Shown here in pieces: positions 6,889-28,362 of a DNA stretch of 32,272 nt. Positions within the stretch are counted from its first letter, which is position 1. Each line of letters starts with the position of its first letter. The notes beneath the pieces are model-generated. The model did no database searches and was not told where the DNA came from. It saw only the letters and a list, made by a program, of their open reading frames with translations. The stretch lies in IMG/VR virus record IMGVR_UViG_3300032083_000329, positions 1 through 32,272 of that record; one strand, given 5' to 3'. Made by a program: the position numbers and the translations under genes. Origin of the DNA: a virus.

Positions 6889-7314
6889 TTACCTGAAATA
6901 AAAGAATCTTGCAAACTGTAGCAATATATCTTCATCTTGTTCTTTTGTTCGCTCCCAAGGAGTGAACCAATCCTGACCCTGAAGCTCTGCCGTTTCGGGT
7001 TCTCCGTGTTCGTCTAACTCACCAACGATCTGAACGGCAGGCCCACCTGTTCCAAGCAGTAGCTTATAGTGTGTTGGGTATCTGTATTCATCATGCGAAT
7101 TGACATCGTGCCAATCGCTTCTGACCTCAACACATAAAGGCATATTTCTTATTTCTTCTTCAACCTCATCAATAACTAAACCCTCATCTTGTGATTCAAT
7201 GGCTTCATTCCACTTTTCAATAAGTTCCTTAATATATTCCATGTCGCCACTTCCAGGAATTTCCTTAACGATTGGCTCAAGTGCTTTGATTACGTTGCTT
7301 TCTAATGTACTCAT
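6889..7314 (-). CDS. Acidic protein of unknown function (141 aa)
   Basis: The N-terminal half is helical and acidic (SQDEGLVIDEVEEEIRNMP). The C-terminal half has a conserved-looking beta segment, YKLLLGTGGPAVQIVGELDEHGEPETAELQGQDWFTPW, which I associate from memory with an unnamed phage protein family (GGPA...GEL...GEP..A.L...DW.TPW). No catalytic residues can be assigned. GGGAG stands 7-8 nt upstream of the ATG, which overlaps the stop of the zinc-ribbon gene (TAATG), so the pair is translationally coupled. The same promoter (7515-7543) drives both, and the terminator at 6841-6865 ends the unit. Confidence 0.8.
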   Translation of the reverse strand: MSTLESNVIKALEPIVKEIPGSGDMEYIKELIEKWNEAIESQDEGLVIDEVEEEIRNMPLCVEVRSDWHDVNSHDEYRYPTHYKLLLGTGGPAVQIVGELDEHGEPETAELQGQDWFTPWERTKEQDEDILLQFARFFYFR

Positions 7315-7475
7315 TATTTTTCTCCCATTTGTTTAATTAAATCATATTCACAGTCTTTGCATGCGTAGTAAGGTAGCTGAACAGATGCCACTATTTCGTC
7401 TTCGTGGAATAAGTTCTTGCAACCGTCACACTCTGTGAAGTTATCAACAAGATAAGAGTTTTGAAATCTACTCAT
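7314..7475 (-). CDS. 53-aa zinc-ribbon protein
   Basis: I translated this small gene directly. It reads MSRFQNSYLVDNFTECDGCK, continues NLFHEDEIVASVQLPYYACK and ends DCEYDLIKQMGEK. CDGC (residues 16-19) and CKDC (39-42) form a likely four-Cys zinc site. GGAG stands about 7 nt upstream of the ATG, and a strong promoter lies 40-70 bp upstream. It is the first gene of a two-gene unit with the 141-aa protein. Zinc ribbons of this size in phages often bind nucleic acid or a host protein, but nothing here shows which. Confidence 0.8.
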   Translation of the reverse strand: MSRFQNSYLVDNFTECDGCKNLFHEDEIVASVQLPYYACKDCEYDLIKQMGEK

Positions 7476-7514
7476 TTTTCGTCTCCTTTGGCTGTTTTTG
7501 TTTGTCTTATTATT

Positions 7515-7543
7515 AATATAGGCTTTCAGTTCCTACATGTCAA
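7515..7543 (-). promoter_or_regulatory. Sigma70 promoter of the zinc-ribbon/141-aa unit
   Basis: TTGACA (7538-7543), 17-bp spacer, TATATT (7515-7520) on the minus strand. The spacer carries TAGGAACT. The promoter is nearly the same as that at 6507-6535 over about 38 bp, suggesting a duplicated cassette end. Confidence 0.87.
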
Positions 7544-7574
7544 CAAATAAAAACATTTTTTTTATTTTTATTTA

Positions 7575-7935
7575 GCAGCATATGTTCGGTTGACGCCAGG
7601 GCCCAGCTGGGTAAATGCGAACAATTGTGCGGTTTTAACCAGGACGCTTCCCTGGTCACAGCTGGGTGATTTTGCGAACAATTGTGAGTTTCCTTCGCAC
7701 TGGGAGATCCAGGCAGCCCGACCCCGAACAATTGTGACGTTCCTTCAGGGGGTGACCAGGGTCCGAAGTCCGACAATCCCGAACAATTGTGCGGTCTGGA
7801 CGCAACAGCGAATCCCGACACCGAACAATTTGGCGTTGACCCGGGCTATGCTGCTGCCCGAAATACCGAACAATTTAAGCCCGACCAGCCCGAAAGCCCG
7901 ACACCCCCGAAACCCGAGGGTGAACGCCTGACCCG
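7575..7935. repeat. GC-rich repeat island 3 with six spaced GAACAATT sites
   Basis: Between the 7.5-kb promoter and the end of terS; no credible gene. GAACAATT starts at 7619, 7676, 7726, 7781, 7823 and 7868, spaced 57, 50, 55, 42 and 45 bp, all in the same orientation. The first four are followed by GTG. CCWGG occurs near 7597, 7638, 7649, 7708 and 7755, and ACCAGG/CCTGGT at 7638-7656 can form a hairpin. The distal part (7845-7940) is dominated by CCCGA units. Open frames here translate to repeated NNC or HNCS strings and look like by-products of the repeats. Confidence 0.82.
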
Positions 7936-7953
7936 ACCCTCCAAGTAAATTTG

Positions 7954-8481
7954 CTATTTAGTGGGTTTTACATTAATTTGCTCTATCGTAATTGGCTCGT
8001 TATGGGATTTGTTCGCTATTTTCATGCGTTTATGGGCAATGTCTTGAAATTCCTGAAGTTTTGACAGAATTTCTTCTCTTGTCATGCTATCTGTACGCTC
8101 ATGTAGCACATGGGCTTTATTTACAAGCAGTCCAGTAGCCTTTAAGCGTAGTTCTTCAGCCCTGATAGCTTCACCGAATTTGCCTGACTCCCATGCTTCG
8201 TTACGTATTTTGAGTAAGTCACGCACCGACTTATCGATTGTGACCCCGAACCGAGTTTGTGCTTCATCACGCATTTCCTGATAACGCTCTTGGACAACTG
8301 GGTTACGGAGTAACCTGACGGCATCGACACCTGGATTTGCGTATCCTGCTGACCTAGCTGCAGAAGTCTGCGTCATATCCTTATGCATAAAGTTATTCAG
8401 AAAGTCTTGCTGCTTATCAGTCAATCTTTTCCAACCTGCTAATCTTTGTTCTTTCGTTAAATCTTGTGCTACCTTTGGCAT
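7954..8481 (-). CDS. terS: Terminase small subunit
   Basis: This is the DNA-recognition subunit that marks the genome for packaging. In its 175 residues the N-terminal helix-turn-helix is typical of the Terminase_2 family: LTDKQQDFLNNFMHKDMTQTSAARSAGYANPGVDAVRLLRNPVVQERYQEM. The middle (about 75-125) is helical and suits ring oligomerisation (VRDLLKIRNEAWESGKFGEAIRAEELRLKATGLL). The ATG at 8481 follows GGAGAT at about 11 nt. It is separated from terL by the accessory cassettes, and the iteron field lies just upstream, in reach of a possible packaging or origin function. No terminator is seen after it, so transcripts may run into island 3. Confidence 0.88.
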   Translation of the reverse strand: MPKVAQDLTKEQRLAGWKRLTDKQQDFLNNFMHKDMTQTSAARSAGYANPGVDAVRLLRNPVVQERYQEMRDEAQTRFGVTIDKSVRDLLKIRNEAWESGKFGEAIRAEELRLKATGLLVNKAHVLHERTDSMTREEILSKLQEFQDIAHKRMKIANKSHNEPITIEQINVKPTK

Positions 8482-8509
8482 CTTATTTTATCTCCATTTA
8501 AATAGGTTC

Positions 8510-8745
8510 TATAGGGTAAGGTGGGGTGGTTTACTTACCACCCACCTATACCCCCTTTAGGGGGTAAGTTCGGTAAGTAAAAAAGTAGGAGCAAAATCAA
8601 TGACTTACAACCTAAAATTAACTTACCGTGGTAAGAAGTAACCTCGGTAAGTAGATTTACGCAAACCGAGGCTACACAAGGGTTTGCCAACTTACCGACC
8701 AATCTACTTACCGTGGTAAGTTGGTAAGTGGTAAGTAAATCACTC
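8510..8745. repeat. GGTAAG/CTTACC iteron field (origin or operator candidate)
   Basis: About twelve copies of the hexamer GGTAAG or its complement CTTACC in 230 bp between terS and the next gene. Two copies of the spaced palindrome CTTACCGTGGTAAG start near 8622 and 8705. TACCCCC/GGGGGTA forms a 7-bp hairpin at 8549-8566. The density and mixed orientation fit initiator-binding iterons or a cooperative operator. The open frame through it (8535-8771) consists of repeat-derived residues and is not supported. Confidence 0.75.
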
Positions 8746-9036
8746 ATAAAGCACCACAATTTTGGGGTCATCAGTAGTCTTATAGAACGTACCGTTAAGG
8801 GTACAAATATACCCTAAATGTCGCATCATCTGATCGTAATTTCTGTAGCATTCAGGGCATGAATATACATCATACGAACAATTCATGTGGTGCAGCACGG
8901 ATGATGTTAACTGTTGGGCTATACCTTTTTCTGTGGCACATCCGAGGCAAATTGTTCGGTTATTCATCACCAGTTCCATGCCTAGGACAATTTTTTCTTG
9001 GCATTCAGCACACTTTGTTTGTTTTTTCTTAGGCAT
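8740..9036 (-). CDS. 98-aa protein with multiple CxxC zinc-binding motifs
   Basis: Begins MPKKKQTKCAECQEKIVLG, with CAEC, CLGC and CPEC motifs plus further Cys, enough for two zinc sites. The first half resembles a treble-clef or ribbon (C..C...C..C within about 25 residues). The second half has YSCPECYRNYDQMMRHLGYIC, which looks like a second C2H2- or C4-type unit. The ATG is preceded by GGAGG 6 nt upstream. It is the last gene of the small-gene operon and ends inside the iteron field. Nucleic-acid binding is plausible but not shown. Confidence 0.78.
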   Translation of the reverse strand: MPKKKQTKCAECQEKIVLGMELVMNNRTICLGCATEKGIAQQLTSSVLHHMNCSYDVYSCPECYRNYDQMMRHLGYICTLNGTFYKTTDDPKIVVLYE

Positions 9037-9222
9037 TTATACCTCCTGACTTATGCTTTGTGTTTCCATATTGCTATGAAGCGTAGTGTAATCACGCCTC
9101 TTGGCTATGGTTTCCCATTGTTTCACGGCTTGATCGTAGTTATCAGCTTCGATCTGAACCATGTAATACTTTGTTTCCTTGCAATGGATAACAAATTTTT
9201 CTTTAGGTAGTTTTCTAATCAT
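9037..9222 (-). CDS. Small protein of unknown function (61 aa)
   Basis: Reads MIRKLPKEKFVIHCKETKYY and continues with VQIEADNYDQAVKQWETIAK. The shape is a beta-alpha unit (beta strands YYMVQIEA, then helix DNYDQAVKQWETI), like many small ferredoxin-fold phage proteins. I chose ATG 9222 because GGAGGAG lies just upstream and it overlaps the previous stop (TAATG). No function can be assigned. Confidence 0.65.
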   Translation of the reverse strand: MIRKLPKEKFVIHCKETKYYMVQIEADNYDQAVKQWETIAKRRDYTTLHSNMETQSISQEV

Positions 9223-9452
9223 TATGCTCCTCCAAAACATCCAGCCATAATTTTATGATCTATAGGCTCTTCGCCAAAATTATCATATATAGCGGCTTCT
9301 ATTAATTGTTCGCTTTTCGGTATATCGCTGCGGCATTGATCCAACGTCATATACTTCACTTGGCTTTCATGCATCATACACTTCTGCTCACCACCGTCAT
9401 AGCGACTACCCTCAACCCAAACGACACATATTAGTACAAACATTTTAACCAT
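9222..9452 (-). CDS. Small Cys-containing protein with a possible signal peptide (76 aa)
   Basis: The N-terminus MVKMFVLICVVWVEGSRYDG has one Lys followed by a short hydrophobic run, weakly like a signal peptide or membrane anchor. The body has Cys at CMMHES, QCRSDI and AGCFGG, suggesting disulfides if exported. I chose ATG 9452 because GGAGG lies 5 nt upstream; ATG 9464 lacks a site. Tandem hairpins precede it (9472-9515). It might act at the envelope, for example in superinfection exclusion, but only the hydrophobic start supports that. Confidence 0.65.
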   Translation of the reverse strand: MVKMFVLICVVWVEGSRYDGGEQKCMMHESQVKYMTLDQCRSDIPKSEQLIEAAIYDNFGEEPIDHKIMAGCFGGA

Positions 9453-9471
9453 ATATTCCTCCATAATTAGC

Positions 9472-9515
9472 GAGATGGGCTACCCTAGAAAGGATTAAAA
9501 CCGATAGCCCATCTC
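9472..9515 (-). promoter_or_regulatory. Stable hairpin in the leader of the 76-aa gene
   Basis: GAGATGGGCTA (9472-9482) pairs perfectly with TAGCCCATCTC (9505-9515) across a 22-nt loop. A second smaller inverted repeat, ACCATT/AATGGT, lies just to its right (about 9518-9546). No T tract follows on the minus strand, so a processing site or translation-control hairpin fits better than a terminator. Confidence 0.65.
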
Positions 9516-9548
9516 TGACCATTCTAATGGGTAAGATTAAAATGGTAT

Positions 9549-11878: not shown

Positions 11879-12067
11879 CTAAAATTCATCTAAAATACTT
11901 TTTGTTTCCATATGGGTATAATTTTTTTGAACTTTGCCGTATTCGACTTCTTTTGCAGCTCTTGGATCGTCTTCAAATAATTGTTCGCTTGGGTCGGGTT
12001 CGGTCTTCGTATTCATAGCTTCTTTACATACTTTTTTCAAAGCATTGTAATTCTCACTACTAGTCAT
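11879..12067 (-). CDS. FEDDPRA-motif protein (62 aa)
   Basis: MTSSENYNALKKVCKEAMNT continues with KTEPDPSEQLFEDDPRAAKE and a polar tail. LFEDDPRA matches MFEDDPRA in the 122-aa protein at 10193-10561, where it follows a zinc ribbon; here the ribbon is in the preceding separate gene. ATG 12067 lies inside the last codons of that gene (TATGAC), an 8-nt overlap, so coupling is likely. Other in-frame starts exist at 12076 and 12205; the last would overlap the ribbon gene almost fully. Confidence 0.62.
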   Translation of the reverse strand: MTSSENYNALKKVCKEAMNTKTEPDPSEQLFEDDPRAAKEVEYGKVQKNYTHMETKSILDEF

Positions 12068-12254
12068 AGCGAACATCCCATGTAGCATTATCAGGTTTGC
12101 AGGGCCAACAAAACCAAGACCAGCCGTTATTGATTGAATACGAAGCACCTGGTTTTCCACAAACCGAACAAATGTTCGTCTTTGGTATGGGCTGCGCTGC
12201 TGCAACCCATGTTCTTTTCACATCCCATGTTCTTCGTCTACTTTGTTCGCTCAT
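12060..12254 (-). CDS. Zinc-ribbon protein (64 aa)
   Basis: MSEQSRRRTWDVKRTWVAAA has a basic start, then CSVCGKPG and CWPCKPDN make a four-Cys ribbon with an aromatic loop (NNGWSWFC). GGAGG lies 6 nt before ATG 12254. It overlaps the end of the methyltransferase gene by 17 nt. Together with the next gene it reproduces the two-module plan of the 122-aa protein, so this is either a gene split or the ancestral two-gene state. Confidence 0.72.
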   Translation of the reverse strand: MSEQSRRRTWDVKRTWVAAAQPIPKTNICSVCGKPGASYSINNGWSWFCWPCKPDNATWDVRYD

Positions 12255-13302
12255 TTTCTGCCTCCTTTATTGCCCAAAATAACCTTGCAGCTACTTGGGG
12301 AACTATACTATTCCCCAAGGATTTTATTCGGTGTGTCCGATTGGATACCCCATGAGCCACTCGACCCACTCGGGGTTCAGGCTTCCACCAGATTGGTCCT
12401 GATCCGATTTCGAGTCGTCTATCTCGCTCATTCTCTTGACTATTACCCCCAATTGAGTGTCTTGCCTCTTGCTCCGATACAGATCCAGGTTCTCCCCCGA
12501 GTCCTTGTAATCCCGAGCCGTTGGTGTAGGGTACATCTCCCTTTTCTTTTTTTCTGCCATCGCAACTGCTGTCTGAAGTGTCGCTCCGAACTTCGTTCCC
12601 GTTCCTTTCCTCGTCACCGTGTAACCCGATTGATTCTCCTCCACATAATCCCCCATTCCTGGGAAGTAGTCCGTTGCTTTCGGTGTGGGCCACATCTTCA
12701 TCGTGTTCTCGTCCACTTGCTCCCTCAAATTGGAAGGTTTGCTGCGACCTTTCCGATGTCCGTTCATCATTCGGATTGTAGCTTCTTCTGACCTTTGGGG
12801 TAGATGATCCATCGTGTTCGGTGTGGCCCACAATCCAACATCGTTCTCGTCTGTGTTTGGCATCTGCGGCGCAAGCTGGAATAATAAATGGTGCGGCTTT
12901 GTATCCGATACTCTCCAAGTCAAAGAGACTTCTTTTGAGGCCCATTGGCATGTTAACAAAGCCTCGCACATTTTCCCCAATGATCCATCGAGGTCGTATG
13001 TCTTCAATAACCCTAACCATTTCGTGCCAGAGATCACGGTCATCTGAATCTCCTCGTTGTTCTCCTGCGACTGACCAGGGTTGGCAAGGGAATCCTCCAA
13101 CAACGATGTCTGCATCTCTAAATTCTTTTCCATCAAAACTCCTTATATCACTAAATATTGGAACATTATGCCAATGTTTTCGCAAGACTTTTTGGCAATA
13201 AGGTTCTCTCTCTACAAAGGCAACTGTTTCAAAGCCACCCACTAATTTCTCAGCAGCGTAACTAAAGCCACCGATCCCACTAAATAAATCAACTATTTTC
13301 AT
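12238..13302 (-). CDS. C5-cytosine DNA methyltransferase
   Basis: Transfers a methyl group from AdoMet to carbon 5 of cytosine in a specific DNA site. The 354 residues hold the full motif set: I VDLFSGIGGFSYA (4-16), IV GGFPCQPWS with catalytic Cys73, VI IGENVRG (108-114), VIII RRERCWIVG (151-159), and IX/X HRIKSLGNSIVPQVAARLFWAI near the end. The target-recognition region (about 165-300) has three HTE/YTNG-type repeats. I chose ATG 13302, which overlaps the upstream TGA (ATGA), over a TTG nine bases earlier. It may protect the phage from restriction; the recognition sequence cannot be read. A second long frame lies inside it (12324-13133). Confidence 0.95.
   Translation of the reverse strand: MKIVDLFSGIGGFSYAAEKLVGGFETVAFVEREPYCQKVLRKHWHNVPIFSDIRSFDGKEFRDADIVVGGFPCQPWSVAGEQRGDSDDRDLWHEMVRVIEDIRPRWIIGENVRGFVNMPMGLKRSLFDLESIGYKAAPFIIPACAADAKHRRERCWIVGHTEHDGSSTPKVRRSYNPNDERTSERSQQTFQFEGASGREHDEDVAHTESNGLLPRNGGLCGGESIGLHGDEERNGNEVRSDTSDSSCDGRKKEKGDVPYTNGSGLQGLGGEPGSVSEQEARHSIGGNSQENERDRRLEIGSGPIWWKPEPRVGRVAHGVSNRTHRIKSLGNSIVPQVAARLFWAIKEAENERTK
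12324..13133 (-). CDS. Overlapping frame inside the methyltransferase gene (WPTP-repeat / VEWLMGYP protein)
   Basis: 269 codons fully inside the methyltransferase gene on the same strand, shifted by one base. ATG 13133 is preceded by AAGGAG with a 5-nt spacer. The product contains DLDGSLGKMCEALLTCQW, SLTWRVSDTKPHHLLFQLAP, then three repeats LWATPNTMDH, MWPTPKATDY and MYPTPTARDY, and ends SLNPEWVEWLMGYPIGHTE. From memory, bacterial and phage databases hold proteins with exactly these phrases (LFQLAP, WPTPTA.D, LNP.WVEWLMG.P.GWT), often annotated as methylase-related. It could be a real overprinted gene or a frame kept open by the constraints on the methyltransferase. The function is unknown. 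Confidence 0.5.
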   Translation of the reverse strand: MEKNLEMQTSLLEDSLANPGQSQENNEEIQMTVISGTKWLGLLKTYDLDGSLGKMCEALLTCQWASKEVSLTWRVSDTKPHHLLFQLAPQMPNTDENDVGLWATPNTMDHLPQRSEEATIRMMNGHRKGRSKPSNLREQVDENTMKMWPTPKATDYFPGMGDYVEENQSGYTVTRKGTGTKFGATLQTAVAMAEKKKREMYPTPTARDYKDSGENLDLYRSKRQDTQLGVIVKRMSEIDDSKSDQDQSGGSLNPEWVEWLMGYPIGHTE

Positions 13303-14138
13303 CCCGTACAATCTCCTCCATCAGCTTGGCATAAGTACGCTTCATCGTTGAATATCCAATCTTGCTGTCTATCAACAAACTCTGCGAATTTCTTTAAGTT
13401 TCTTCCTCTCTCGAACTGTCTACCAGTTCTTTCTTCTGCATCAATCCACCATTTTGCTAGTTCAGGGTGGTCTCTCACCATTGATGCAAGTTGTGATTCA
13501 GACTTTAAAAAACATAAATCACAATTACCTTTAATAGTTTTGCCATTAACAACAGGCAAATCTAATTTAAAATCTTGTTTGTGCCAAAATTTATCAACGT
13601 CAAATATGGAATGATTAGCTTCACATATAGGATAAAAAGGGTAGAAGCCATTTGCAAAACCAGGTTTGCATCTGTGCTTTTCATCTGACCTTATACCCAA
13701 AGCGTTGTGCCACTTCTTCCAACCAAGGCTTCTTAAATACTTAGATGTTGTATCTCTTTTCAAGCTACCCGTACAAAACCTAGACATAGGATTAGGCAAT
13801 CTGTTGTGCTTATTTATTAATTTATCAAACGGTTCACCCTTACGACTTGCGTTGTCATAGTGAACAATTTTAAATACATGTTTGTTTTCTTCGTTCAAAT
13901 CATATTCTAACCAGGTAATTTTTACATCCCATTTTTGCGAACAATTATTTACGAAGTCCAATGTCTGTGGCATTTCACGACCAGTGTTTTGAAAGCAAAC
14001 CAAGGCGTTATCAGGCAATCCGTTGTTAGCTTCCAATATGTGATGAAGCATAAAGGCACTGGTTCTGCCTCCACTAAAGGATATGCAGACGTTATTGTCT
14101 GGAAGTTTATAAGTTTTCTGTTGCTGTTCTTGCATCAT
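13299..14138 (-). CDS. PAPS reductase-family PP-loop protein
   Basis: An adenine-nucleotide alpha-hydrolase fold, 279 residues. The PP-loop is ISFSGGRTSAFML (about 19-31), followed by FQNTGREMPQTLDFV, RFCTGSLKRD, ALGIRSDE and the Cys pair GNCDLCFLKS. Related proteins reduce adenylylated sulfate or, as in DndC, handle sulfur for DNA phosphorothioation. Phage members are widespread and uncharacterised. It is translationally coupled to the methyltransferase gene (ATGA) and overlaps the primase-helicase end by 32 nt. That context suggests nucleotide or DNA modification rather than sulfate assimilation. No dndD or dndE partner is in the window. Confidence 0.88.
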   Translation of the reverse strand: MMQEQQQKTYKLPDNNVCISFSGGRTSAFMLHHILEANNGLPDNALVCFQNTGREMPQTLDFVNNCSQKWDVKITWLEYDLNEENKHVFKIVHYDNASRKGEPFDKLINKHNRLPNPMSRFCTGSLKRDTTSKYLRSLGWKKWHNALGIRSDEKHRCKPGFANGFYPFYPICEANHSIFDVDKFWHKQDFKLDLPVVNGKTIKGNCDLCFLKSESQLASMVRDHPELAKWWIDAEERTGRQFERGRNLKKFAEFVDRQQDWIFNDEAYLCQADGGDCTG

Positions 14139-16296
14139 ATTCGCCTCTACTCATGTCTCCGTCTACAGTACCAAGCCATTTACGACCACCTGACCTAGAA
14201 AAAGAATACTTAGATATTCTAACTTCATTCAATAATTCTCTGACCAATCCATCAATTGTTCGCTGTGTTGCGTTGTCTAAAACTTTAGGTGCATCAGAAT
14301 CTGCAGCCATTCTTTGCAATATTGCATCAGCTCCCGATTGTTGTGTTAATGCTCTACCATCACGCTCACATAAGGCAATCCAAGCAAACAAAGCATCTTT
14401 CTTTATTTGTCTGTTACTGCCTGAATGCAGCCTTGCTATATCTTCAGATCGATCTTCTAATAATCCCGTAAATACATCACGAATAAAGTGACGTATATCA
14501 CGCCTTGCAGGGCCATTTGATTTAACAACTGCACCATCAAAGCATCTGTTTCTTTGATACTCTATGCCTAAGTCCTGACAACGCCTACGACCTGTTGCTT
14601 CATCAACTTGCCATATTGTAAAAGCACAGCGAACACCATCAACTAATGCTGACGTACCTCGTATCATATTCCTTGCTTGTTCAGGTGTTGATACAACTGT
14701 ATCATCTTTAATTTTTGTCATATGATGACACATAATTACTGAAGCACCCGTTTCTGTAGCTATCTTTGCAAGAAGTCCAGTCAACGCTGCTCCTGCCGCT
14801 GGATCGGAGTTTACATCTGCATGAACAAATGATGCCAACGGATCAAATACAATTAACTTTAAATTACTCATCTGTAGTATTTGTGCATATATCTTTTCAA
14901 ACTCATCGCTAGTTCTATAGCCATCATGTGTATCTTGGAGTATTGGGAATACACCACCAACATTAGGCAAAGACACGACTCGCAGTTCATGTTCATAGTT
15001 AAACCTAGAATTGTTCGTATCTAAGCGTTCAATTCTTCTGTGCATTTCACCTTCATCATCTTCTGCTGTAAAGATAATTGCATTACCGAACTCGGTAATA
15101 TTACCACCGAAAGATGCAGATAAAGGCTGACCACTTGCTACTTTCATAGCCAAGTCCAAAGTCATCATACCTTTTCCAGCATCACCAGACGCAGAAAATA
15201 TTATAGGAACAGCCAATGGTAATGTTTCACCGATTAAAAACTTCTGTTCAGGTGCTTTACCCTCAAACCTATTTATTAATAAACTGTTATCTAATAAATT
15301 TATATTTCGTTTAACATGCTTAACTGTTGCACTTAGAAACTGACCTATATCAAAACTTTCTGCTATAGCATCGGCTGCATCCCATCTTTCAGGCTTACCT
15401 AAAGGTGGTGTAAGCATTGTTACTGACCTTGCACCTGCGTTCATAGCTAAGTCTTGCACGAGTTCAGCTACCTTTTTACCTGCGTTATCGTTATCGGGCC
15501 ATATAACTAATTCTTTGCCATGCAATGGTGAGAAGTCAAATTGGCTAGCTGACTTACGAGACAGCATACCCGCTCCACCCATAGTACATGTAGCTGTAAA
15601 TCCCATCTCATTAAGAGCATCAGCACATTTCTCACCCTCAACCCATATAACTTTTTCAGAAGCAGAAATGTTCGGTATATTATATAACGGTCTTACATCA
15701 GGCATCTTAGGATAAGGATTAGTTCCAGTGAACTGACGAAACTCTTTCTTAGGCTTGCCATGATCGTCCATTACTGGATTACCTGCGCCATCTCTCATAT
15801 TGTATCGTCTGACCATACATATGACTTCGCCGTCCACACTTAAATAAGAATGCTCACTATCAAATGGTGTGTTGATATTTATTTGCTGTCTCAATGATTT
15901 GTTGATTATAGAATCAATCGGAGGAGCAGCATTTTCGTCTCTAAGAAATCTAGGAGTGTCGTCTAAATAATCAGAAAAAAATTCTTTTATTTCGGGTAGC
16001 TTCATGTCACGACCCTCCATCAATATCTTAACAATGCCTCCAACGCCACTTGATCCGTTGAAATCATTGCCTTTCATAAACCAAGGTGATCTTGGATTAA
16101 TATCTATCTTTAAAGATTTTCCAGGTTCTCCATTTAAAGAGCCTACATTGAACTCGTCACCCCTAATTACACCATTAGGATATGTGTCTCTTAAAATATC
16201 AATCTGTGTTTGTGGTGGAACTTTCTGACTTATTAATTCTACTAATTCTCTTCCACTCATATCACGATTAGCATTGCCAAATCTTACTATACTCAT
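14107..16296 (-). CDS. Primase-helicase: TOPRIM domain plus RepA-like ATPase
   Basis: A 729-residue replication protein. The N-terminal about 200 residues form a primase-like region without the usual zinc Cys set. TOPRIM is at about 215-290 (VIWVEGEKCADAL with the catalytic Glu, LVIWPDNDNAGKKVA with Asp-x-Asp). A RepA/AAA_25 RecA-like domain follows: P-loop FSASGDAGKGMMTLDLA (Lys375; Gly where Ser/Thr is usual), Walker B KLIVFDPLASF and the sensor-like VIMCHHMTK. The C-terminus has a winged-helix-like region. I prefer ATG 16296 (MSIVRFGNA); the extension to 16350 would run across a 9-bp hairpin. It probably primes and unwinds the fork with the SF2 helicase. Confidence 0.9.
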   Translation of the reverse strand: MSIVRFGNANRDMSGRELVELISQKVPPQTQIDILRDTYPNGVIRGDEFNVGSLNGEPGKSLKIDINPRSPWFMKGNDFNGSSGVGGIVKILMEGRDMKLPEIKEFFSDYLDDTPRFLRDENAAPPIDSIINKSLRQQININTPFDSEHSYLSVDGEVICMVRRYNMRDGAGNPVMDDHGKPKKEFRQFTGTNPYPKMPDVRPLYNIPNISASEKVIWVEGEKCADALNEMGFTATCTMGGAGMLSRKSASQFDFSPLHGKELVIWPDNDNAGKKVAELVQDLAMNAGARSVTMLTPPLGKPERWDAADAIAESFDIGQFLSATVKHVKRNINLLDNSLLINRFEGKAPEQKFLIGETLPLAVPIIFSASGDAGKGMMTLDLAMKVASGQPLSASFGGNITEFGNAIIFTAEDDEGEMHRRIERLDTNNSRFNYEHELRVVSLPNVGGVFPILQDTHDGYRTSDEFEKIYAQILQMSNLKLIVFDPLASFVHADVNSDPAAGAALTGLLAKIATETGASVIMCHHMTKIKDDTVVSTPEQARNMIRGTSALVDGVRCAFTIWQVDEATGRRRCQDLGIEYQRNRCFDGAVVKSNGPARRDIRHFIRDVFTGLLEDRSEDIARLHSGSNRQIKKDALFAWIALCERDGRALTQQSGADAILQRMAADSDAPKVLDNATQRTIDGLVRELLNEVRISKYSFSRSGGRKWLGTVDGDMSRGEYDARTATENL

Positions 16297-16328
16297 TATA
16301 CTATCCCTACCTTCATTGGCTGAAGTTA

Positions 16329-16360
16329 TAGGCGACATTTTTCTTCTCATGTGTCGCCTA
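16329..16360 (-). promoter_or_regulatory. Hairpin in the leader of the primase-helicase gene
   Basis: TAGGCGACA (16329-16337) and TGTCGCCTA (16352-16360) form a perfect 9-bp stem with a 14-nt loop, between the Cas4-like gene's stop and the preferred primase-helicase start. There is no T tract on the minus strand, so it may be an RNA processing or translation-control site; it is also compatible with a protein-binding palindrome. Confidence 0.6.
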
Positions 16361-17833: not shown

Positions 17834-19499
17834 TTTTGTCTCCTATGCTTTTAATTTTGTTATCTATATCTTTTTTATTCCACAAATAATTTAACCAACA
17901 AGCAGCTTTATATTTGTTCCAACTAAAATCCATAACTCTAACTGTTATACCACAGTTCTTTAATGCTTGTGTTTGTTTAGGTGTTACAGCTTCATTCAAC
18001 CATCTTTTACCTTTTCTTGCACCGTCACTATCCTCAATTTCTCTTAGGAAGTCATCAGCAGATGCTATGGCTTGTTCTTTAGTACCAACACTAACCACCC
18101 TTAACCGTCCATTAGAACGCTTTACAAGGGCTATAGACACATCATCTAAGTGTGCAACTAACCCAAAGCCATTAAATCCACTAGCACTCATGCAACGTCC
18201 ATTATCAAATAAATCTACCCAACGATAAGGTGATCTATCCATAAGGTCAACTTCGGTCATAATGAAGTCTTCTAATACTTCTTTATCTTGTTTGCCGAAC
18301 TCATATCCACATAAAGGACACTCACGAGATGATAACGGTACAACTGATTCGCATTGTGGGCATGTTTTTTCAGGAGCAGCACCTATTCCTCGAGCCTCTG
18401 AACCCTCTAAATCAACTGTTTCATCTAACGATCCATGTGTAAGTACACTTGTTCCAAAATCTAAAACTATACAATCTCTTTTGATAATTCCAGGGTGTTC
18501 TTCGGGATCTATTGTTCGCAGTCCACGACCAATCATCTGCACCATTGTGGATTTGTATGAACATGGTCTTGTTAAAACAATGCAACTAACTGGTGGAGCG
18601 TCAAATCCTTCGGTAAGCACAGCAACATTAACAACGACCTGAACATCCCCATGTTCTAAATCATGTAATATCTTTTGTCTTTCATCACTTGGAGTATCAC
18701 CCGTAAGCAATTCAGCTCTAATATTAGCTCTACGATACTCGTCACATACATCTTGTGCATGTATAATGGTAGAACAGAAAACAACTGTTTTTCTATCGAT
18801 AGCTTTTTCTTGCCACTCCTGAACAATACGCTCATTAATAGCTCGTTTGTTCATAATACGCTCAACTTCACCCATATCAAAATCAGATATGGTTTTGCGA
18901 ACATTTTCTAATTCTTGTCTGACACCAACATCAACAACAAATGTCTTTGGTGGCACGAGAAAACCTTCACGAATTAATGTGGTGATTTCTATTTGATGCG
19001 AACAATTATTAAATATGCTGCGTAAACCTTTTCTATCTCCACGATTAGGAGTCGCTGTAAAGCCAACTATCTCAACTGAATTATTAGCTTCTTTAACTCT
19101 ATCAATAATTCTTGTATATGTTTCTGCTATTGCATGGTGACTTTCATCAACCACAACCATGTCAAAGTCACACATGTTTTCCAAATTGTTCGGTCTTGAA
19201 AGCGTCTGCACCATACTAAATATAGTTTCACCAGACCAATCTTTCTCTGACCCATCTACTACACTTGTTGTTATCTTTGGATTTACCTTTGAAAACTTTG
19301 TTCTGTTTTGCCTGACTAACTCGTCACGATGCTGCAAGATTAAAATCTTTTTGCCTTGCTTGTATCTTTTACCAACTAAAGCTGAAAGCATGATTGTCTT
19401 ACCTGCTCCCGTTGGAGCGACAACAATAGTGTTTTTGTGTTTGGTAAGAGCAATAGAAGCATCGTCAACTGCTATCTTTTGGTATGGTCTAAGTATCAT
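17823..19499 (-). CDS. SF2 DEAD/DEAH-type helicase with zinc ribbon
   Basis: 558 residues. Helicase motifs: I APTGAGKT (28-35), II DESH (118-121), III TAT (148-150), and VI MIGRGLRT near 320-330. The four-Cys insertion CPQCESVVPLSSRECPLCGYEF (about 380-400) is typical of phage and RadD-like members of this group. The C-terminal about 150 residues form an extra domain (SGFNGFGLVAHLDD; KGKRWLNEAVTPKQTQALKNCGI). It would unwind DNA or remodel forks in replication or recombination. AAGGATAATTA precedes ATG 19499, and two hairpins sit in the leader. Confidence 0.93.
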   Translation of the reverse strand: MILRPYQKIAVDDASIALTKHKNTIVVAPTGAGKTIMLSALVGKRYKQGKKILILQHRDELVRQNRTKFSKVNPKITTSVVDGSEKDWSGETIFSMVQTLSRPNNLENMCDFDMVVVDESHHAIAETYTRIIDRVKEANNSVEIVGFTATPNRGDRKGLRSIFNNCSHQIEITTLIREGFLVPPKTFVVDVGVRQELENVRKTISDFDMGEVERIMNKRAINERIVQEWQEKAIDRKTVVFCSTIIHAQDVCDEYRRANIRAELLTGDTPSDERQKILHDLEHGDVQVVVNVAVLTEGFDAPPVSCIVLTRPCSYKSTMVQMIGRGLRTIDPEEHPGIIKRDCIVLDFGTSVLTHGSLDETVDLEGSEARGIGAAPEKTCPQCESVVPLSSRECPLCGYEFGKQDKEVLEDFIMTEVDLMDRSPYRWVDLFDNGRCMSASGFNGFGLVAHLDDVSIALVKRSNGRLRVVSVGTKEQAIASADDFLREIEDSDGARKGKRWLNEAVTPKQTQALKNCGITVRVMDFSWNKYKAACWLNYLWNKKDIDNKIKSIGDKNES

Positions 19500-22182: not shown

Positions 22183-22640
22183 GCTACTTGTTCCTTAACA
22201 CCTAAGTCTTCCATACGTTTTATTAAACGATTTGCACGATTAGTTACTTGTTTGTGCCATCTCGAATCTTCCATTTGAATTGCACATTCAAGCCAATCGT
22301 TGCTATCTATAGCAGCACGAAACTTAACAAATTTAGACAAACGAGGTCTGCCCATATTGAACATCATATTGCACAAGATTAATTGCACTTCTTCAGGTAA
22401 GTCATCAAATTTATCAAATAACTTTTTACATTCTTCAATTGTGCCATGAACATCAGTTTGGAAACAATTATTAACTCGTTCTTCTGAAACTGGTGTTCCT
22501 ACTTCTTTACCATATTCTTCATCCCATTCAGTAATAAGATGTCCTATTCCATGCGTTGGCAAACCTAAATGATCTAAGTAAATTTCGTACTTACATCCTT
22601 CATCTTCTTTAAGCTCTTCTCTTAATTGCTCTATGTTCAT
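22179..22640 (-). CDS. T4-type lysozyme (GH24 endolysin)
   Basis: A 153-residue peptidoglycan muramidase. The catalytic triad Glu14 (DEGC), Asp23 (YLDHLG) and Thr29 (PTHGIGHL) has the 9- and 6-residue spacing of T4 lysozyme Glu11/Asp20/Thr26. The C-terminal lobe contains ILCNMMFNMGRPRLSKF and a conserved DSRWHKQVTNRANRL segment. There is no signal peptide or membrane anchor, so it needs a holin (not seen here) or acts from the virion. Its ATG overlaps the TGA of the 982-aa virion protein (ATGA), placing it at the end of the structural operon. Confidence 0.94.
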   Translation of the reverse strand: MNIEQLREELKEDEGCKYEIYLDHLGLPTHGIGHLITEWDEEYGKEVGTPVSEERVNNCFQTDVHGTIEECKKLFDKFDDLPEEVQLILCNMMFNMGRPRLSKFVKFRAAIDSNDWLECAIQMEDSRWHKQVTNRANRLIKRMEDLGVKEQVA

Positions 22641-25585
22641 TGAGTTAAATTCCTATATAAGTTTTGTCTTGATTCTGGTATTGATCTTGAAGCTATAGCT
22701 TGATCTTTAGGGTTAATTCCTAACGCAGCACCAACTCCAGGCTGTGTTATGTCTATACCACCGATAGATGTATTTATTGCTGGTGGTTTAACATTAGGAA
22801 CATTTGTTCGCTCACTTAGAGGCGTTGGAAACATACCACCACTTTCAGGTTCTGTTCTTGAAGGCAGTAATGCTTGTTGAGCTGATTGCCTAACAACACG
22901 ACCTATGTTTTCTGCACGATCTATTCCTGTATTAATTGCTTGTGAAACTGTAGCATTAACTCTATCTAAAGGATTAGCTCCACCTTTTTGCATTTTAATA
23001 TATGTTTTTAAATTTTCAGGCTTTGATCCTATTTTATTTAATATTTTAAATTTAGCTATGTCAAAAAACTTTTTAATAGGTGAATTAGTGTAAGCTGGAG
23101 CTGCAACACTACCTTCTTTACCTACATCTCCTAAAAATTCTATATCTTTAGCAAACTCTTTTAATGCTTTTGTATTACCTTTACCTAGAATTTGATCTAA
23201 AACTCTCGGCTCGTAACCATCAATTAACTTTACTAACTTACTTGCTGCAGCTTGATTAGAAAATATTTCTCCGTCCACAGCACTAAGTATATCATCTACA
23301 ACTAAACCTCTTAATTTATCCATTGTCGCACCGCTAGGATCTGTCTTTTCAAAAAAATCAACTATCTTTTTAACTTCTGAAGGACTTGCATTTCTTTTAG
23401 TTATTTGACCAACGGCTTCTTCTGGTAACAATTGATTGCTTTGAAGTTTGTTAACAACATTTATTTGATCTAATTCTGCAAAAGCCTTTTTAGCTTTTAA
23501 CAATTCTTCCAATGATTGTGTTAAAGTATCATCACCACCAATGTTTTTTATTTTACCAAGAATTGCAGCATCTAACTTATCAGGGCCAGACATAGCTATT
23601 TGATCTGATAATCTTTTGACTCTATTCCAATTGTTTCCAAATAAAATTTTACCAGTAGAACTGTCTCCAAATCCTAAAGAATCAATGTGAGCTTTAAATC
23701 TAGCTCCACTAAATTTTCCTGATGCGATGTCGCCTATGTCGCTAATGCCAGTTTTATTGATGCCTTCATCTAAAAATCTACGAGCTAATTGTCCTCTTAT
23801 GTCTTCAGCAGCATCATCTCCAACGGTTTTAAATAACTGTTTAAGTCTCTGTGGAGAATTGGATTTAACAACTCTGTCATAAAATTGATCTAATTCAAAT
23901 TTACCTTTAGTACCAAAGCTACCTTCTTGTTTAGTTAAATTTTTAATACTTCTAATTAAACCAAATTGAGATAAATCTTCAAAGTTTTTCATAGCTTCTT
24001 TATAATAAGTCATAGAACTTGTTCTAAGGTCTGTTGCTTCTTTAAGTATTGCTTTTTCTGCATCACTTAGATTTTTAGAAGCTATATTTGTAAGGTTTGT
24101 TGCCTCTAATGAGTCGTCTAATGTTCTTATAATATTATCTATTTCTGGTAAGAACTCTCTGTTTAACAAAGCATTTTCAGAAAACAAAGCATCATTCAGT
24201 TGTTTTCTTGCTACTGCTATTTGTCTAAATGATGCGTTTTCACCTAAATCATCAATCGCCTTGACTGCTTTTGCAGTTTCTTCTGTTAAAGCGTTTATAG
24301 AACCGACTTTAGTAACTAAATTGTTAGTAGCGCTTTTTATATCGGCTGTTTTTAAAATTTCTGCTGTTTGTCCAGTACCACCATCAGCAAGTCTAACTTG
24401 TGATAACAAATCATCAACTTTTCCAAATCTCATAGATGTTTCTGCTTGCATGGCAGAAAATGCTTTATTTATTTTTAGTAACAATTGTTCGTTAATGTCT
24501 ACGCCATTGGCTGTAGCTTTTTCAATATAATTAATACTTTCTTTTACAGCCTTAATACTAGCGTTCGCTGCTTCTTCTTCTAATTGCTTTAAAGATTTAA
24601 ATGCCTGACCAGTCACATTTGAAAAGGCTTCTCCAGCTTCTTCTTTACCAACAGCACCCAATTGAGTTTTTAAAGCATCAGCTTTGTCTAATATTTTTCC
24701 TAGATTTATATCCATACGAGTTGTGTCTTTTAACACATTCTCTGCAAATTTTTGTTGATATGCAACAATTCCTGGTGCGCCTAATCTTTCTAAACTAGGA
24801 GCATATCCTTCATCAACTAATCTTTCACCTCTTGCTATGGCGTCATCAGTAATTTGAGTTAACTTACCAGCTTGTCCAACACCTTTTTTAACACCACCTA
24901 CTACTGCTCTACCTGCTTTAAAAACTAAAGCTCCACCAAGCTCAAATGTTCCAGCTATAGCAGCTTCGGTTAAGGCATCTTTAGTTACTTCTCCAAAACT
25001 TTGTTGCTGTATTCCTAATAAACTTTCAATACCTTCTTCTAAATATTGACCTGCCGCAGCTCCAGCCGCAGCTCCAAAAGAAGATGTTATAATTCCTGGA
25101 GCAGTAATAATAGCACCTACGACAGCACCTGCAGTTTCTGGGATTAAACCTGCTAAATCGGCTACATCTCCAAAAGAGAAGCCTTCATCTTCCAATACGA
25201 TATTTTTATCAGAGATATTTTCCATACCTCTTATTCTTTGACCTTCAGGAGTTAATGCAAGTCTGCCAAAAGAATCTTTTGTATATCCACCTACACCAAC
25301 TTCATTTCTAAGTATTGCTTCTTGCTCTCCGTCTGTTTCACCGAAAGAAACTTTTGCACGAAGACCAGAATCAGCACCTGTTTCATAATCAAAGTTTTTA
25401 TCTTTGTTAGATTGTTTTGCTTCATTAATTAAATCTTCAAATGTTCTTTCTTTAGGATCAGAAGATTCGGTAGATCCAAAAAATTGACTTTGAATATCGT
25501 TTTGTTCTTGTTCTGTAGGCTCGTCACCAGCAATTCTTACTTTAACTATGCCATCATTAGGAGTTCTTACTTGTATAACAGCCAT
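22637..25585 (-). CDS. Very large putative internal virion / DNA-ejection protein
   Basis: 982 residues. After a small N-terminal domain (MAVIQVRTPNDGIVKVRIAG) there is a hydrophobic Gly/Ala region, about 130-235 (GDVADLAGLIPETAGAVVGAIITAPGIITSSFGAAAGAAAG), that could insert into a membrane. A long, mostly helical region with coiled-coil stretches follows (about 290-850), then a Pro-rich C-terminus. The arrangement resembles ejection proteins of podoviruses, such as T7 gp16-like internal core proteins, but without an identifiable transglycosylase; the lysozyme is encoded directly downstream instead. The function is inferred from size, composition and position. Confidence 0.75.
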   Translation of the reverse strand: MAVIQVRTPNDGIVKVRIAGDEPTEQEQNDIQSQFFGSTESSDPKERTFEDLINEAKQSNKDKNFDYETGADSGLRAKVSFGETDGEQEAILRNEVGVGGYTKDSFGRLALTPEGQRIRGMENISDKNIVLEDEGFSFGDVADLAGLIPETAGAVVGAIITAPGIITSSFGAAAGAAAGQYLEEGIESLLGIQQQSFGEVTKDALTEAAIAGTFELGGALVFKAGRAVVGGVKKGVGQAGKLTQITDDAIARGERLVDEGYAPSLERLGAPGIVAYQQKFAENVLKDTTRMDINLGKILDKADALKTQLGAVGKEEAGEAFSNVTGQAFKSLKQLEEEAANASIKAVKESINYIEKATANGVDINEQLLLKINKAFSAMQAETSMRFGKVDDLLSQVRLADGGTGQTAEILKTADIKSATNNLVTKVGSINALTEETAKAVKAIDDLGENASFRQIAVARKQLNDALFSENALLNREFLPEIDNIIRTLDDSLEATNLTNIASKNLSDAEKAILKEATDLRTSSMTYYKEAMKNFEDLSQFGLIRSIKNLTKQEGSFGTKGKFELDQFYDRVVKSNSPQRLKQLFKTVGDDAAEDIRGQLARRFLDEGINKTGISDIGDIASGKFSGARFKAHIDSLGFGDSSTGKILFGNNWNRVKRLSDQIAMSGPDKLDAAILGKIKNIGGDDTLTQSLEELLKAKKAFAELDQINVVNKLQSNQLLPEEAVGQITKRNASPSEVKKIVDFFEKTDPSGATMDKLRGLVVDDILSAVDGEIFSNQAAASKLVKLIDGYEPRVLDQILGKGNTKALKEFAKDIEFLGDVGKEGSVAAPAYTNSPIKKFFDIAKFKILNKIGSKPENLKTYIKMQKGGANPLDRVNATVSQAINTGIDRAENIGRVVRQSAQQALLPSRTEPESGGMFPTPLSERTNVPNVKPPAINTSIGGIDITQPGVGAALGINPKDQAIASRSIPESRQNLYRNLTQ

Positions 25586-25587
25586 TT

Positions 25588-27417
25588 TTATTCACCTGTC
25601 TGCGTATAATCATAAATATTATCTTTTCCTAAAACAAATTTTCCTTTAGAAGTAGCAACACTTTTTCTATTAATATTAACTCCTGCTTTAGATAAATTTC
25701 TGTATCCTTCAGCAACATTTTCTCTTCCTGCTGTTATTATTCTTTTATACAAATTACCAACTTTTCTAACTAATTCATCTTCATCACCACTAGTTAAACT
25801 GATTTCACCAACAATTTCAGAAACCATCTTCCTATCATTATCTGATAATGTTTTACCTGCTTCTCCTAAAATTTCAGCGGCATTTTCAGCTTTTAATCTT
25901 GTTAATAATGTTTTAATTTGTGCAATAGGCGTTGTGTCTCCACCTACATCTAAACCAAGGTTTCTAAAGCCTTGAACAACAGACGATGCTAATTGAGAAG
26001 GAACACCAACTCCAGTTTGTTCTAATAAACCTGCTATGTTGGCAAATGTTTTTTCTTGTCTATTTAAAGACTTGTCCATTGATACAAGTTGATTAACTAC
26101 AATATCTGGATTGTCTATAAATCTTGGCATAGTTCCTGCAGGAGCTTCGTTTGCATCAGGTAATTGAACATTAAAACCAAGACCTTTAGGCGCTCCAGTA
26201 AATAAAGGAGTAAAACTTTTTCCTGTTTGATATAATTTTTTAGTTTTAGTACTAGCTGTTATAGCTTTTCCAGCTAAATCTGCGTAAGTGCTACTTGGTA
26301 CAATTTCATATTGTTCGTTAAATTCTTTATTTAAAGCTAAATTGTTTAATTCATATGAATTTAACTGTGTATATTCTCCTTTACCAATTCCAGAGATAAG
26401 TCCTTCTAAACCACCTTTTTTACCTTTAGGAACAATCATGTAAGACTTTCTATTCATAGCCGCATTTTTGTCTTCTTTGGTTTTCCCTAAAGCATATTCA
26501 CCAGCCTTTGCACGAACAGCCTTAGATTCAGCAACAGCTTTTCTAAAATCAGGCATTGCGGCTTCTCCAGCCTCACCAGTAGCAGTTAAAATCTTACTTA
26601 CATCAAATCCTTTACCTGCTCTATTCTGCATTAGAGCTAATCCAAATGACATCAGAGCTTGTTTTGTATCAGGTTCTCCTGATATATCTAAACCTGTTGC
26701 ATCACCAAATTCTTTTATATACTCATCATAAGTTTGCGGCTCAACTCCTGGTCTTGCTTGTGCAAGAAACTCACTAAGAGCTGTCTTTGTAGCTGTTTGT
26801 GCTGCAGTTAAATTTTCTCCAGACCCGTCAGTATCTGTCGTTTGTTTAGTAATATTATTTTCTTCTTCTGCTATTTCAGAACCATCTGTACCATCTGTTG
26901 TGCCTTTATCTGCATTGTTGATTACATCTTGAATTGATATGCCATCAGGAAATTGAGTATCAACAAGTCTTTTTTGACCTTGACCACCGTCTTCTGTATC
27001 AAATGCGTCATACAATCCTTTTGGAACTAATTTGTCTAATCCAGTTTGATCTGTTGGCAATCCAAACTCTAATCCAGCCATGTTAGACGCTATTTTTTGT
27101 GCGTCTTGTTCTCTTTCATCATCACTTTTTTGACCCATATATTGACCAATACCACTCAAAGCTCCTGGAACATTAGAAACTAAGTCAGATGCTACTTTAA
27201 TAGGTCGAAAAGCGTTTCTTAAAAGTGCGTCAGTATATGATCCTTCAGCACCTAAAGATAATAAATTGTTGGGGTTGCTTCCGTAAAATTCATCATCTGT
27301 ATAGGCTCGAGTGTTTTTTCCTATTAACTCACCTAAACCTTTACGTTTGTCTGCACCAACTATTTGATCAACTAAACCAGGGGCAACACTCATAATTCCT
27401 TGTGGTTTTTTTGCCAT
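25588..27417 (-). CDS. Putative internal virion protein (609 aa)
   Basis: Begins MAKKPQGIMSVAPGLVDQIV. The acidic Thr/Asp/Gly-rich linker (about 170-205: ADKGTTDGTDGSEIAEEENN) separates an N-terminal region from helical parts. A C-terminal globular region follows (PDIVVNQLVSMDKSLNRQEKTFANIAGLLEQTGVG through LVRKVGNLYKRIITAGRENV). GGAG stands about 9 nt before the ATG, and the next gene starts 3 nt past its stop. It is one of three consecutive large proteins that probably form the internal or ejection machinery. I know no enzymatic motif in it. Confidence 0.72.
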   Translation of the reverse strand: MAKKPQGIMSVAPGLVDQIVGADKRKGLGELIGKNTRAYTDDEFYGSNPNNLLSLGAEGSYTDALLRNAFRPIKVASDLVSNVPGALSGIGQYMGQKSDDEREQDAQKIASNMAGLEFGLPTDQTGLDKLVPKGLYDAFDTEDGGQGQKRLVDTQFPDGISIQDVINNADKGTTDGTDGSEIAEEENNITKQTTDTDGSGENLTAAQTATKTALSEFLAQARPGVEPQTYDEYIKEFGDATGLDISGEPDTKQALMSFGLALMQNRAGKGFDVSKILTATGEAGEAAMPDFRKAVAESKAVRAKAGEYALGKTKEDKNAAMNRKSYMIVPKGKKGGLEGLISGIGKGEYTQLNSYELNNLALNKEFNEQYEIVPSSTYADLAGKAITASTKTKKLYQTGKSFTPLFTGAPKGLGFNVQLPDANEAPAGTMPRFIDNPDIVVNQLVSMDKSLNRQEKTFANIAGLLEQTGVGVPSQLASSVVQGFRNLGLDVGGDTTPIAQIKTLLTRLKAENAAEILGEAGKTLSDNDRKMVSEIVGEISLTSGDEDELVRKVGNLYKRIITAGRENVAEGYRNLSKAGVNINRKSVATSKGKFVLGKDNIYDYTQTGE

Positions 27418-27429
27418 CTTTTACAGCTC

Positions 27430-28362
27430 CTAATTACCTGTTGCGCCACCACTAAACGGTGCAATTTGTGACAATGTTGTGTAAGCTCCAATGCCTTGTA
27501 AAAAAGGATTGGCTGATGGTGTTGTTGATTGTGTAAACGTAGATGGAATACTTGAACTTGGCATTCCTTGTAACAAATTCTGACCTATTTGCAATCTTGT
27601 GTAAGGCTCTTGAGCTGTTTGCATTGCATTTTGTCTTGTTGCATCTAATGCCGCTTGATCTTGTTGTTGTCTCATTGCACCTAATTGACTTAACTGTGAT
27701 ACATCTGCTTGACCTAGAGCTTGTTGCAGACGACCTATATCTGACGTTGTACCTGCTAAAGTTCCAAATGCCTGACCAATACCACCTGACAGCCTTCCAG
27801 CTTCCTGCGAGGCTTTTTGAGCTTGTGCAAAGTTAGAAGAAAGAAGTTTTGACAAAGTATCTGCCTTAACTTGTTGTAATCCTCTGTCTCTTTCAGCTCT
27901 TTGAATACCTTCTCTACTTCCACCAAAAGCACCAGATTGTATAGCTTTGGCTGCATCGCCTTGTCTTGCAATATCTGCTTGCCTATCAAGTTGTGTCATT
28001 GTTGAATCAATAACACTTTGTTGATAAGGATTCATAAACTTATCTATGTTTTCCTGTGATGGCTGTAAGAAACCTAATCCACTAGTTAATGCTTGTTGAG
28101 CAGCTAAGTCTTGTGTCTTTGCTCCTTCAATAAAAGGCTTGTAAGAACCAGACAATTGTTCGCCTAAATTAATTGCAGAAGTACGAAGCGGGTCCATTCC
28201 AGCAATTTGATAATCTGGTAATCCTAAAGGTGAGTCTAACAATCCTGTGGACGTTTGTGTGTCACCATCAAACTCGCCAAATCCAGTTTGCAACATACGT
28301 TTTTGCAAACCTTCAAGAAAAGGGGGTAATCTATTTATATTTTCAACTGTTTGAGTTGCCAT
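27430..28362 (-). CDS. Gln/Ala-rich structural protein (310 aa)
   Basis: Contains MNPYQQSVIDSTMTQLDRQADIARQGDAAKAIQSGAFGGSREGIQRAE, a phrase I associate with virion proteins of marine podoviruses, in a long helical region (about 85-260). The N-terminus is Pro/Gly-rich and the tail is Ser/Thr/Pro-rich. It overlaps the stop of the preceding gene (TAATG), so the proteins are likely made in fixed ratio. It may be part of the internal core or tail; no enzyme motif is visible. Confidence 0.72.
   Translation of the reverse strand: MATQTVENINRLPPFLEGLQKRMLQTGFGEFDGDTQTSTGLLDSPLGLPDYQIAGMDPLRTSAINLGEQLSGSYKPFIEGAKTQDLAAQQALTSGLGFLQPSQENIDKFMNPYQQSVIDSTMTQLDRQADIARQGDAAKAIQSGAFGGSREGIQRAERDRGLQQVKADTLSKLLSSNFAQAQKASQEAGRLSGGIGQAFGTLAGTTSDIGRLQQALGQADVSQLSQLGAMRQQQDQAALDATRQNAMQTAQEPYTRLQIGQNLLQGMPSSSIPSTFTQSTTPSANPFLQGIGAYTTLSQIAPFSGGATGN

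Follow-up and report, generated by a model that had tools for sequence, protein, structure and literature searches.

A short DNA word under codon-independent selection across the genomes of a marine phage family is probably a protein-binding site

The DNA uptake sequences and uptake signal sequences (DUS/USS) of Neisseriaceae and Pasteurellaceae each consist of one enriched short word that lies within genes and in intergenic inverted pairs and differs between lineages in the manner of dialects. Here we analyse a comparable word in a virus, namely the nine-letter AATTGTTCG and the shorter TTGTTCG, in a stretch of 32,272 bases (IMG/VR virus record IMGVR_UViG_3300032083_000329, hereafter the window), where it fills three islands (limits used: 5539-6020, 6560-6880 and 7560-7955) and is also scattered through coding genes. 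Like DUS/USS, the phage word stands far above codon and Markov expectation and occurs both in genes and as inverted pairs, but it belongs to phages, is not dense in any host-class genome tested and has no link to competence. Unlike Chi, which is biased along the direction of replication, it is no more skewed in its orientation within genes than codon usage predicts.

Among phages, the L5-type stoperators of cluster A mycobacteriophages are many short repressor sites spread across the genome, in promoters and elsewhere (PMC9283540, excerpt); they are asymmetric 13-mers found at promoters and in short intergenic spaces and oriented with transcription. The word resembles them in its many short copies scattered over a phage genome, but it is half of a dyad, often lies mid-gene where it is conserved, and does not follow transcription in its orientation (41/41). 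The HIP1 of cyanobacteria is likewise an over-represented short palindromic word with a possible methyltransferase link (PMC4390886, excerpt); it is chromosomal, whereas the phage word is viral, stands mostly as half-sites in genes, and is not accompanied by a detected methyltransferase in all genomes. The mycobacterial LexA SOS box shares an identical 14-bp core, CGAACAATTGTTCG (PMC8607333, excerpt), while the phage has tens of copies plus conserved half-sites. The SPP1/SF6 pac site, with direct repeats beside the small terminase gene terS and a TerS of the same family, is also similar, but the phage word is in addition genome-wide and stays while the array upstream of terS changes. A literature search, with most subscription papers lying outside it, found no report of AATTGTTCG in phages.

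TTGTTCG occurs 41 times in the window, against a mean of 2.90 and a maximum of 7 in 100 dinucleotide shuffles, and AATTGTTCG 28 times against 0.31 expected. Outside the three islands, where an order-2 Markov model predicts 3.4 and 0.29 copies, 21 and 11 are found, respectively. The most over-represented 9-mers there are AATTGTTCG and its overlapping shifts, and the strongest unrelated 9-mer, CTTTCATCA, is far weaker (6 vs 0.5). The original prediction, made from the letters of the window, had placed TTGTTCG at 17 positions outside the islands; all 17 hold the word or its complement within 3 bases, and four more sites had been overlooked (10016, 12165 and 30203 on the minus strand, 12243 on the plus strand). 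The full 9-mer stands at 11 of the 21 outside sites, the remaining sites lacking it. Counts within the range of codon and dinucleotide usage would have refuted the prediction, but they are not what is seen: beside the dinucleotide result, open reading frames of at least 90 amino acids on the main strand contain 10 word sites, compared with 0.64 after synonymous-codon shuffling.

The same excess is seen across related genomes. In 240.9 kb of genes, called by a simple open-reading-frame rule in 11 word-bearing genomes or pieces, the word in the form CGAACAATT occurs 82 times against 5.1 expected from synonymous-codon shuffles per genome, with 41 sense sites (3.0 expected) and 41 antisense sites (2.0 expected), in agreement with the claim that both orientations are used. 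An earlier count with shorter reading frames took in spurious island frames and hence is unused. The excess is uneven, being strong in the window, G018 and G027 and weaker in G024 (6 vs 0.9) and G019 (4 vs 0.4). Density is about threefold greater in early and replication genes (28 sites in 49.1 kb, 0.57 per kb, 18-fold over shuffles) than in other genes of the same five genomes (24 in 127.6 kb, 0.19 per kb, 12-fold). In a far clade (helicase protein 79-81% identical), which carries the shifted word GCGAACA with a looser centre, three genomes hold 36 words in 43.4 kb of early genes (0.83 per kb) and 26 in 106.0 kb elsewhere (0.25 per kb).

The repetition thus reflects codon-independent selection at the DNA level, as had been proposed: the enrichment outlasts synonymous shuffling, the two orientations are equal, and the words are kept beyond random 9-mers. 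Because sense and antisense copies are equally enriched, Chi-like, polar or RNA roles are disfavoured. Pairing of island transcripts with mRNAs was dropped on the same ground. A switch of orientation at the islands, considered as a mark of replication or packaging polarity, is accounted for by codon usage as far as genes are concerned; stretches 3' of terS keep an orientation bias of 171:66. Helical phasing was rejected: same-orientation spacings initially fitted 10.5 bp (Rayleigh z 13.3, 91 pairs), but the signal collapsed to z 2.4 (85 pairs) or 3.0 (60 pairs within 130 bp) once homologous pairs were removed, so that it was an effect of shared ancestry.

Alignments with relatives indicate that the gene positions of the word are partly conserved, with turnover. 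Of 96 comparisons across all alignable genes, made with relatives about 20% diverged, 63 retain the window's word, against 17.0% for random 9-mers. Codons whose amino acid is conserved are identical in 12/18 cases inside words and 638/2454 outside them (Fisher p = 3.7e-4); an initial version with the clades mixed gave 9/16 vs 515/2406 (p = 0.0026), and p = 0.15 for 7-mer words. Ten scrambled control words yielded two sites only, too few for use. The far-clade word GCGAACA is kept in 34/73 comparisons vs 27% of random 7-mers. The alignment of the helicase gene comprises the window and 77 of 80 fetched loci (L029, L059 and L060 were excluded for incomplete matches). At column 307 the word is present in all 50 near sequences, the window included, and its third positions are identical in 17/17 near representatives below 95% identity, compared with 19.6% fully conserved gene-wide. 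A third site, at column 412, occurs in 31 near sequences and is absent from the window. The AATTGTTCG sites of the window and their retention are as follows.

8875-8883, minus strand: gene 8740-9036, column 153; kept in 1/6 near relatives
8950-8958, plus strand: gene 8740-9036, column 78; kept in 6/6 near relatives
9304-9312, plus strand: gene 9222-9464; kept in 5/8
11979-11987, plus strand: gene 11879-12205; kept in 3/3
13938-13946, minus strand: PAPS-reductase-like gene 13299-14138; kept in 2/5, mixed set
14254-14262, plus strand: primase-helicase gene 14107-16350, column 2088; kept in 4/13
15009-15017, plus strand: primase-helicase gene 14107-16350, column 1333; kept in 11/13
18999-19007, minus strand: helicase gene 17823-19499, column 492; near 49/50, far 0/28
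19184-19192, plus strand: helicase gene 17823-19499, column 307; near 50/50, far 0/28
24483-24491, plus strand: gene 22637-25585; kept in 1/11
28154-28162, plus strand: ejection-protein-like gene 27430-28362; kept in 1/4

The full site is a dyad, CGAAC-AATT-GTTCG, extended by outer bases to [C/G]CGAAC-AATT-GTTCG[C/G]. With both halves of one palindrome scored separately, the second half matches at 4 or 5 of its 5 bases in 63 of 109 non-coding sites and in 13 of 72 coding sites, whereas 46 of the 72 coding sites match at no more than 2. The sites thus fall into two tiers: the dyads are almost complete in the islands, while genes hold mostly half-sites. The islands sit between transcription units, and their surroundings comprise the following features.

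5539-6020, unstranded: island 1, between the amidoligase-like gene 4281-5474 and the gamma-glutamylcyclotransferase-like (GGCT-like) gene 6024-6470; six AATTGTTCG
6507-6535, minus strand: promoter-like match TTGACA-17-TATATT (sigma-70-like), left of island 2; 11/12
6560-6880, unstranded: island 2, lying upstream of the GGCT-like gene's promoter-like match; five AATTGTTCG
7515-7543, minus strand: promoter-like match TTGACA-17-TATATT (sigma-70-like), left of island 3; identical to the match at 6507-6535
7560-7955, unstranded: island 3, which ends where the 3' end of terS lies; six CGAACAATT, all in the same orientation, with starts 42-57 bp apart
7954-8481, minus strand: terS, small terminase gene of SF6/SPP1 type, adjoining island 3; candidate binder

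Island 1 also holds GC-rich spacers, CCCGA tracts and terminator-like hairpins, and one copy in island 2, at 6603-6616, is the perfect palindrome CGAACAATTGTTCG. Only two promoter-like matches occur in 5400-8000, and islands 2 and 3 sit directly upstream of them; this is a weak signal alone, two being fewer than the mean of 4.3 in shuffles. By eye, GCAATCATTGC-like palindromes were seen in TTGACA/TATATA spacers of L156 (near 6730 and 7270) and L200 (near 2790 and 3390). The window islands (5680-5720, 7870-7940) and L200 at 3860-4010 also contain runs of CCCGA, CCCGATCCCGA and CCCGACCCCGA, which the family as a whole has in excess.

In a survey of gene ends, where most loci had been chosen for holding a palindrome and the counts are accordingly raised, 59 of 60 distinct terS genes are followed by the word within 700 bp, with about four copies on average. 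It is found at the ends of 35/46 GGCT-like, 10/38 amidoligase-like, 13/25 primase-helicase, 8/17 exonuclease and 2/16 helicase genes, and at none of the ends of sm3784 (0/31), HTH3405 (0/18) or Sak4 (0/18). It stands within 12 bp past the stop in 5 of the 46 GGCT-like and 4 of the 60 terS cases. Inspection by eye also picked out copies directly after a stop (TAA, then ATTGTTCGG) at L200 1984, G018 27817, 28566 and 29274, and L156 6130.

Judged from its distribution among viral contigs, the word marks one marine (seawater) phage family. The palindrome CGAACAATTGTTCG occurs in at least 118 stretches; among the matches listed, 74 have at least four words, and genes of the word-bearing family are present in 64 of them, compared with 4 of the 44 that carry three or fewer. 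At least some of the ten other word-rich stretches contain structural genes from this family, L102 being part of G018 and L119, L142 and L169 aligning with structural genes of the window. The longest relatives (G018, G024, G009 and G011) measure 57.6-60.0 kb. The named relatives by large terminase, at 56-62% identity, are HTVC027P, HTVC023P, 023Pt_psg01 and DSL-LC04; CGAACAATT was counted in 50 kb each of these four and of two further named phages and is absent from all six. Word-bearing genomes have in common a replication module of primase-helicase, exonuclease, helicase, Sak4 and RusA, which is missing from the four terminase relatives and from Pag-Yong1. The four carry DNA polymerase A instead, of which no homologue was found in G018, G009 or G024, and, except for a distant TerS, they also lack the early region of the word-bearing genomes. 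Other genes of the window, in 12238-14138 and 4281-6470, encode a C5 methyltransferase and PAPS-reductase-like, amidoligase-like and gamma-glutamylcyclotransferase-like proteins. No tRNA gene was found in the window, and the sole tRNA among 20 loci scanned is a tRNA-Cys gene in the word-rich relative L150 (9122-9195).

The form and distribution of the word make it very probable that it is a protein-binding site of some kind, the landing site of a DNA-binding protein. A polar signal accounts less well than a dimeric DNA-binding protein for the combination of equal orientation, dyad form and early-region density. The word would be the half-site of a dyad read by one sequence-specific protein acting on the DNA of the family, and this putative binder, presumably dimeric, would bind strongly at the islands and weakly at the half-sites in genes. 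Such putative operator-like sites are densest 3' of terS and in early and replication genes. Islands and half-sites may together act as an operator network by which transcription of the early region is controlled or insulated, a tentative proposal that we place clearly short of an even chance, and they may also draw the phage DNA together in a single nucleoprotein complex. A dimeric repressor is able to read the site, as is seen from LexA, which binds the same 14-bp core in the Mycobacterium tuberculosis dnaE2 SOS box with a dissociation constant of about 2 nM (PMC8607333, excerpt). Several observations weigh against such a network. None of the candidate binders examined (TerS, the primase-helicase and a helix-turn-helix protein at 3405-3836) convinces, and the gene of the last was undetected in word-bearing G024 and G019. 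No regulatory role is known here for sites in the middle of genes; sites beyond the early region are enriched too (24 vs 2.1), although a network of early operators could do without them; and 0 sites were found in 7.5 kb of G019 early genes. In addition, several window words are poorly kept (1/11, 1/4, 1/6, 4/13), and the codon test fails in the far clade (4/16 vs 24%, p = 1.0).

A broader reading of the same sites is that the word is a genome-wide self-recognition code of the phage family, with its dyad islands concentrated where terS meets the early genes and with a putative reader that tells phage from host DNA or folds it. The slight changes between clades would then be akin to the dialects of uptake sequences, in a word that is viral and not host-owned; we consider this possible though on the unlikely side. 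Less likely again is a role in replication, in which the islands would be iteron-type origins and the scattered sites would serve the phage primase-helicase. The six direct repeats of island 3 lie beside AT-rich DNA, the sites are densest in the replication half of the genome, and the replication module goes with the word in the comparison above. However, the C-terminal region of the primase-helicase, a possible place of origin binding, is among its most variable parts despite the same word, genes show no orientation bias, there is no clear GC-skew switch at the islands, and CRP-902 has homologues of the exonuclease and helicase but not the word. A P4-alpha-like initiator was also considered and set aside: in its helicase part the primase-helicase instead matches RSF1010 RepA, and its C terminus is variable. 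A LexA-type host regulator with a CGAAC-N4-GTTCG box might bind the phage, the islands being SOS-box arrays with a regulatory or decoy function. The shared core and its nanomolar binding speak for this, and the scans of host genomes leave it standing, since a regulator with few host targets needs no enrichment there; nevertheless, half-sites that match at most 2 of the 5 second-half bases are conserved, and we judge this explanation improbable.

A Chi-like, uptake or other polar host word is very improbable. Over-representation and scattering in genes do resemble uptake words, but orientation shows no bias beyond codon expectation, which disfavours the Chi analogy originally offered, and the six named phages lack the word. 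The analogy with host uptake words fares little better: CGAACAATT is not dense in 385 Alphaproteobacteria and 369 Gammaproteobacteria genomes, since G107, the highest of these 754, has 107 copies in 1.7 Mb (about 63 per Mb) and G018 has 47 in 58.4 kb (about 800 per Mb), although these classes may not be the host's, which may lie elsewhere, and other classes are represented by a few of 14 single genomes. The 18-base palindrome was found at 28 places in bacterial genomes, one per stretch, and these were taken as chance or terminators and not as hosts. We give equally little weight to a methylation-linked word, created or kept by a methyltransferase in the manner of HIP1. HIP words accompany matching methyltransferases (PMC4390886, excerpt), and such enzymes are encoded by the window and several relatives, of C5 or amino types in the latter according to a crude motif search; yet the same search found none in word-bearing G018, G027 or the piece G026p, and half-sites are not a usual methylation target.

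Packaging, the remaining analogy of the original prediction, is possible but weakened, and we regard it as distinctly unlikely. The islands would be pac-like arrays and the scattered words weaker TerS sites, so that mainly phage DNA is packaged. The position of the word downstream of terS, a TerS of SF6/SPP1 type and the direct repeats of the SPP1 pac site at the terS gene (PMC4737164, excerpt) are all in keeping with this, as is a TerS helix-turn-helix that is near-invariant in 35 word-bearing TerS and differs in four word-less relatives. The structural model of the window's TerS has a mean predicted local distance difference test score (pLDDT) of 68.5, and its best fold match, a weak one, is the SF6 DNA-binding domain (E 0.21). 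Against packaging, TerS residues 36-59 (24 residues) are the same in the window and L253 (G010) although the word of G010 has changed, the SF6 TerS domain binds DNA with almost no sequence preference in the excerpt of PMC4737164, and a tag for packaging, if uniform, should not be concentrated in the early genes. Moreover, a separate, lineage-specific array lies directly upstream of terS. In the window it consists of ten copies of ACTTACC/GGTAAGT in both orientations at 8533-8736, out of 14 in the whole window. Among the 29 of 31 listed relatives that could be scored (the upstream DNA of L145 and L132 was too short), five, L024, L253, L165, L150 and L251 (four copies), have at least four copies of ACTTACC at terS. 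Others have TACGTCA (L103, L198, L107, L158, L148), TACCGGA (L095), TAACGTA (L105, L106), ACCCAAA (L136), ACCCCAA (L199), TGACCAA (L121) or ACTTGCA (L130). By this comparison the array upstream of terS evolves fast while CGAACAATT stays constant. The ACTTACC array is possibly a better candidate than CGAACAATT for a site read by TerS in packaging, and packaging is therefore ranked lower for AATTGTTCG. The word-less HTVC023P, HTVC027P, 023Pt_psg01 and DSL-LC04 have repeats of their own around terS/terL, which comprise 33-base tandem copies, GCTTG words, GCTCGC/GGGCCCACCC words and CGGCCG words (L238 12372-12566; L237 16490-17480; L236 15380-15560; L235 14328-21120).

In summary, the word, which we read as the probable half-site of a dyad bound by a dimeric protein, offers a clear example of a short DNA sequence that is selected throughout a viral genome independently of codons, at positions that diverged relatives partly share. 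From it a specific DNA-binding protein can be predicted, and it provides a sequence tag for an uncultured marine phage family. If the word does mark or fold viral DNA, it would be a viral counterpart of the bacterial uptake words.

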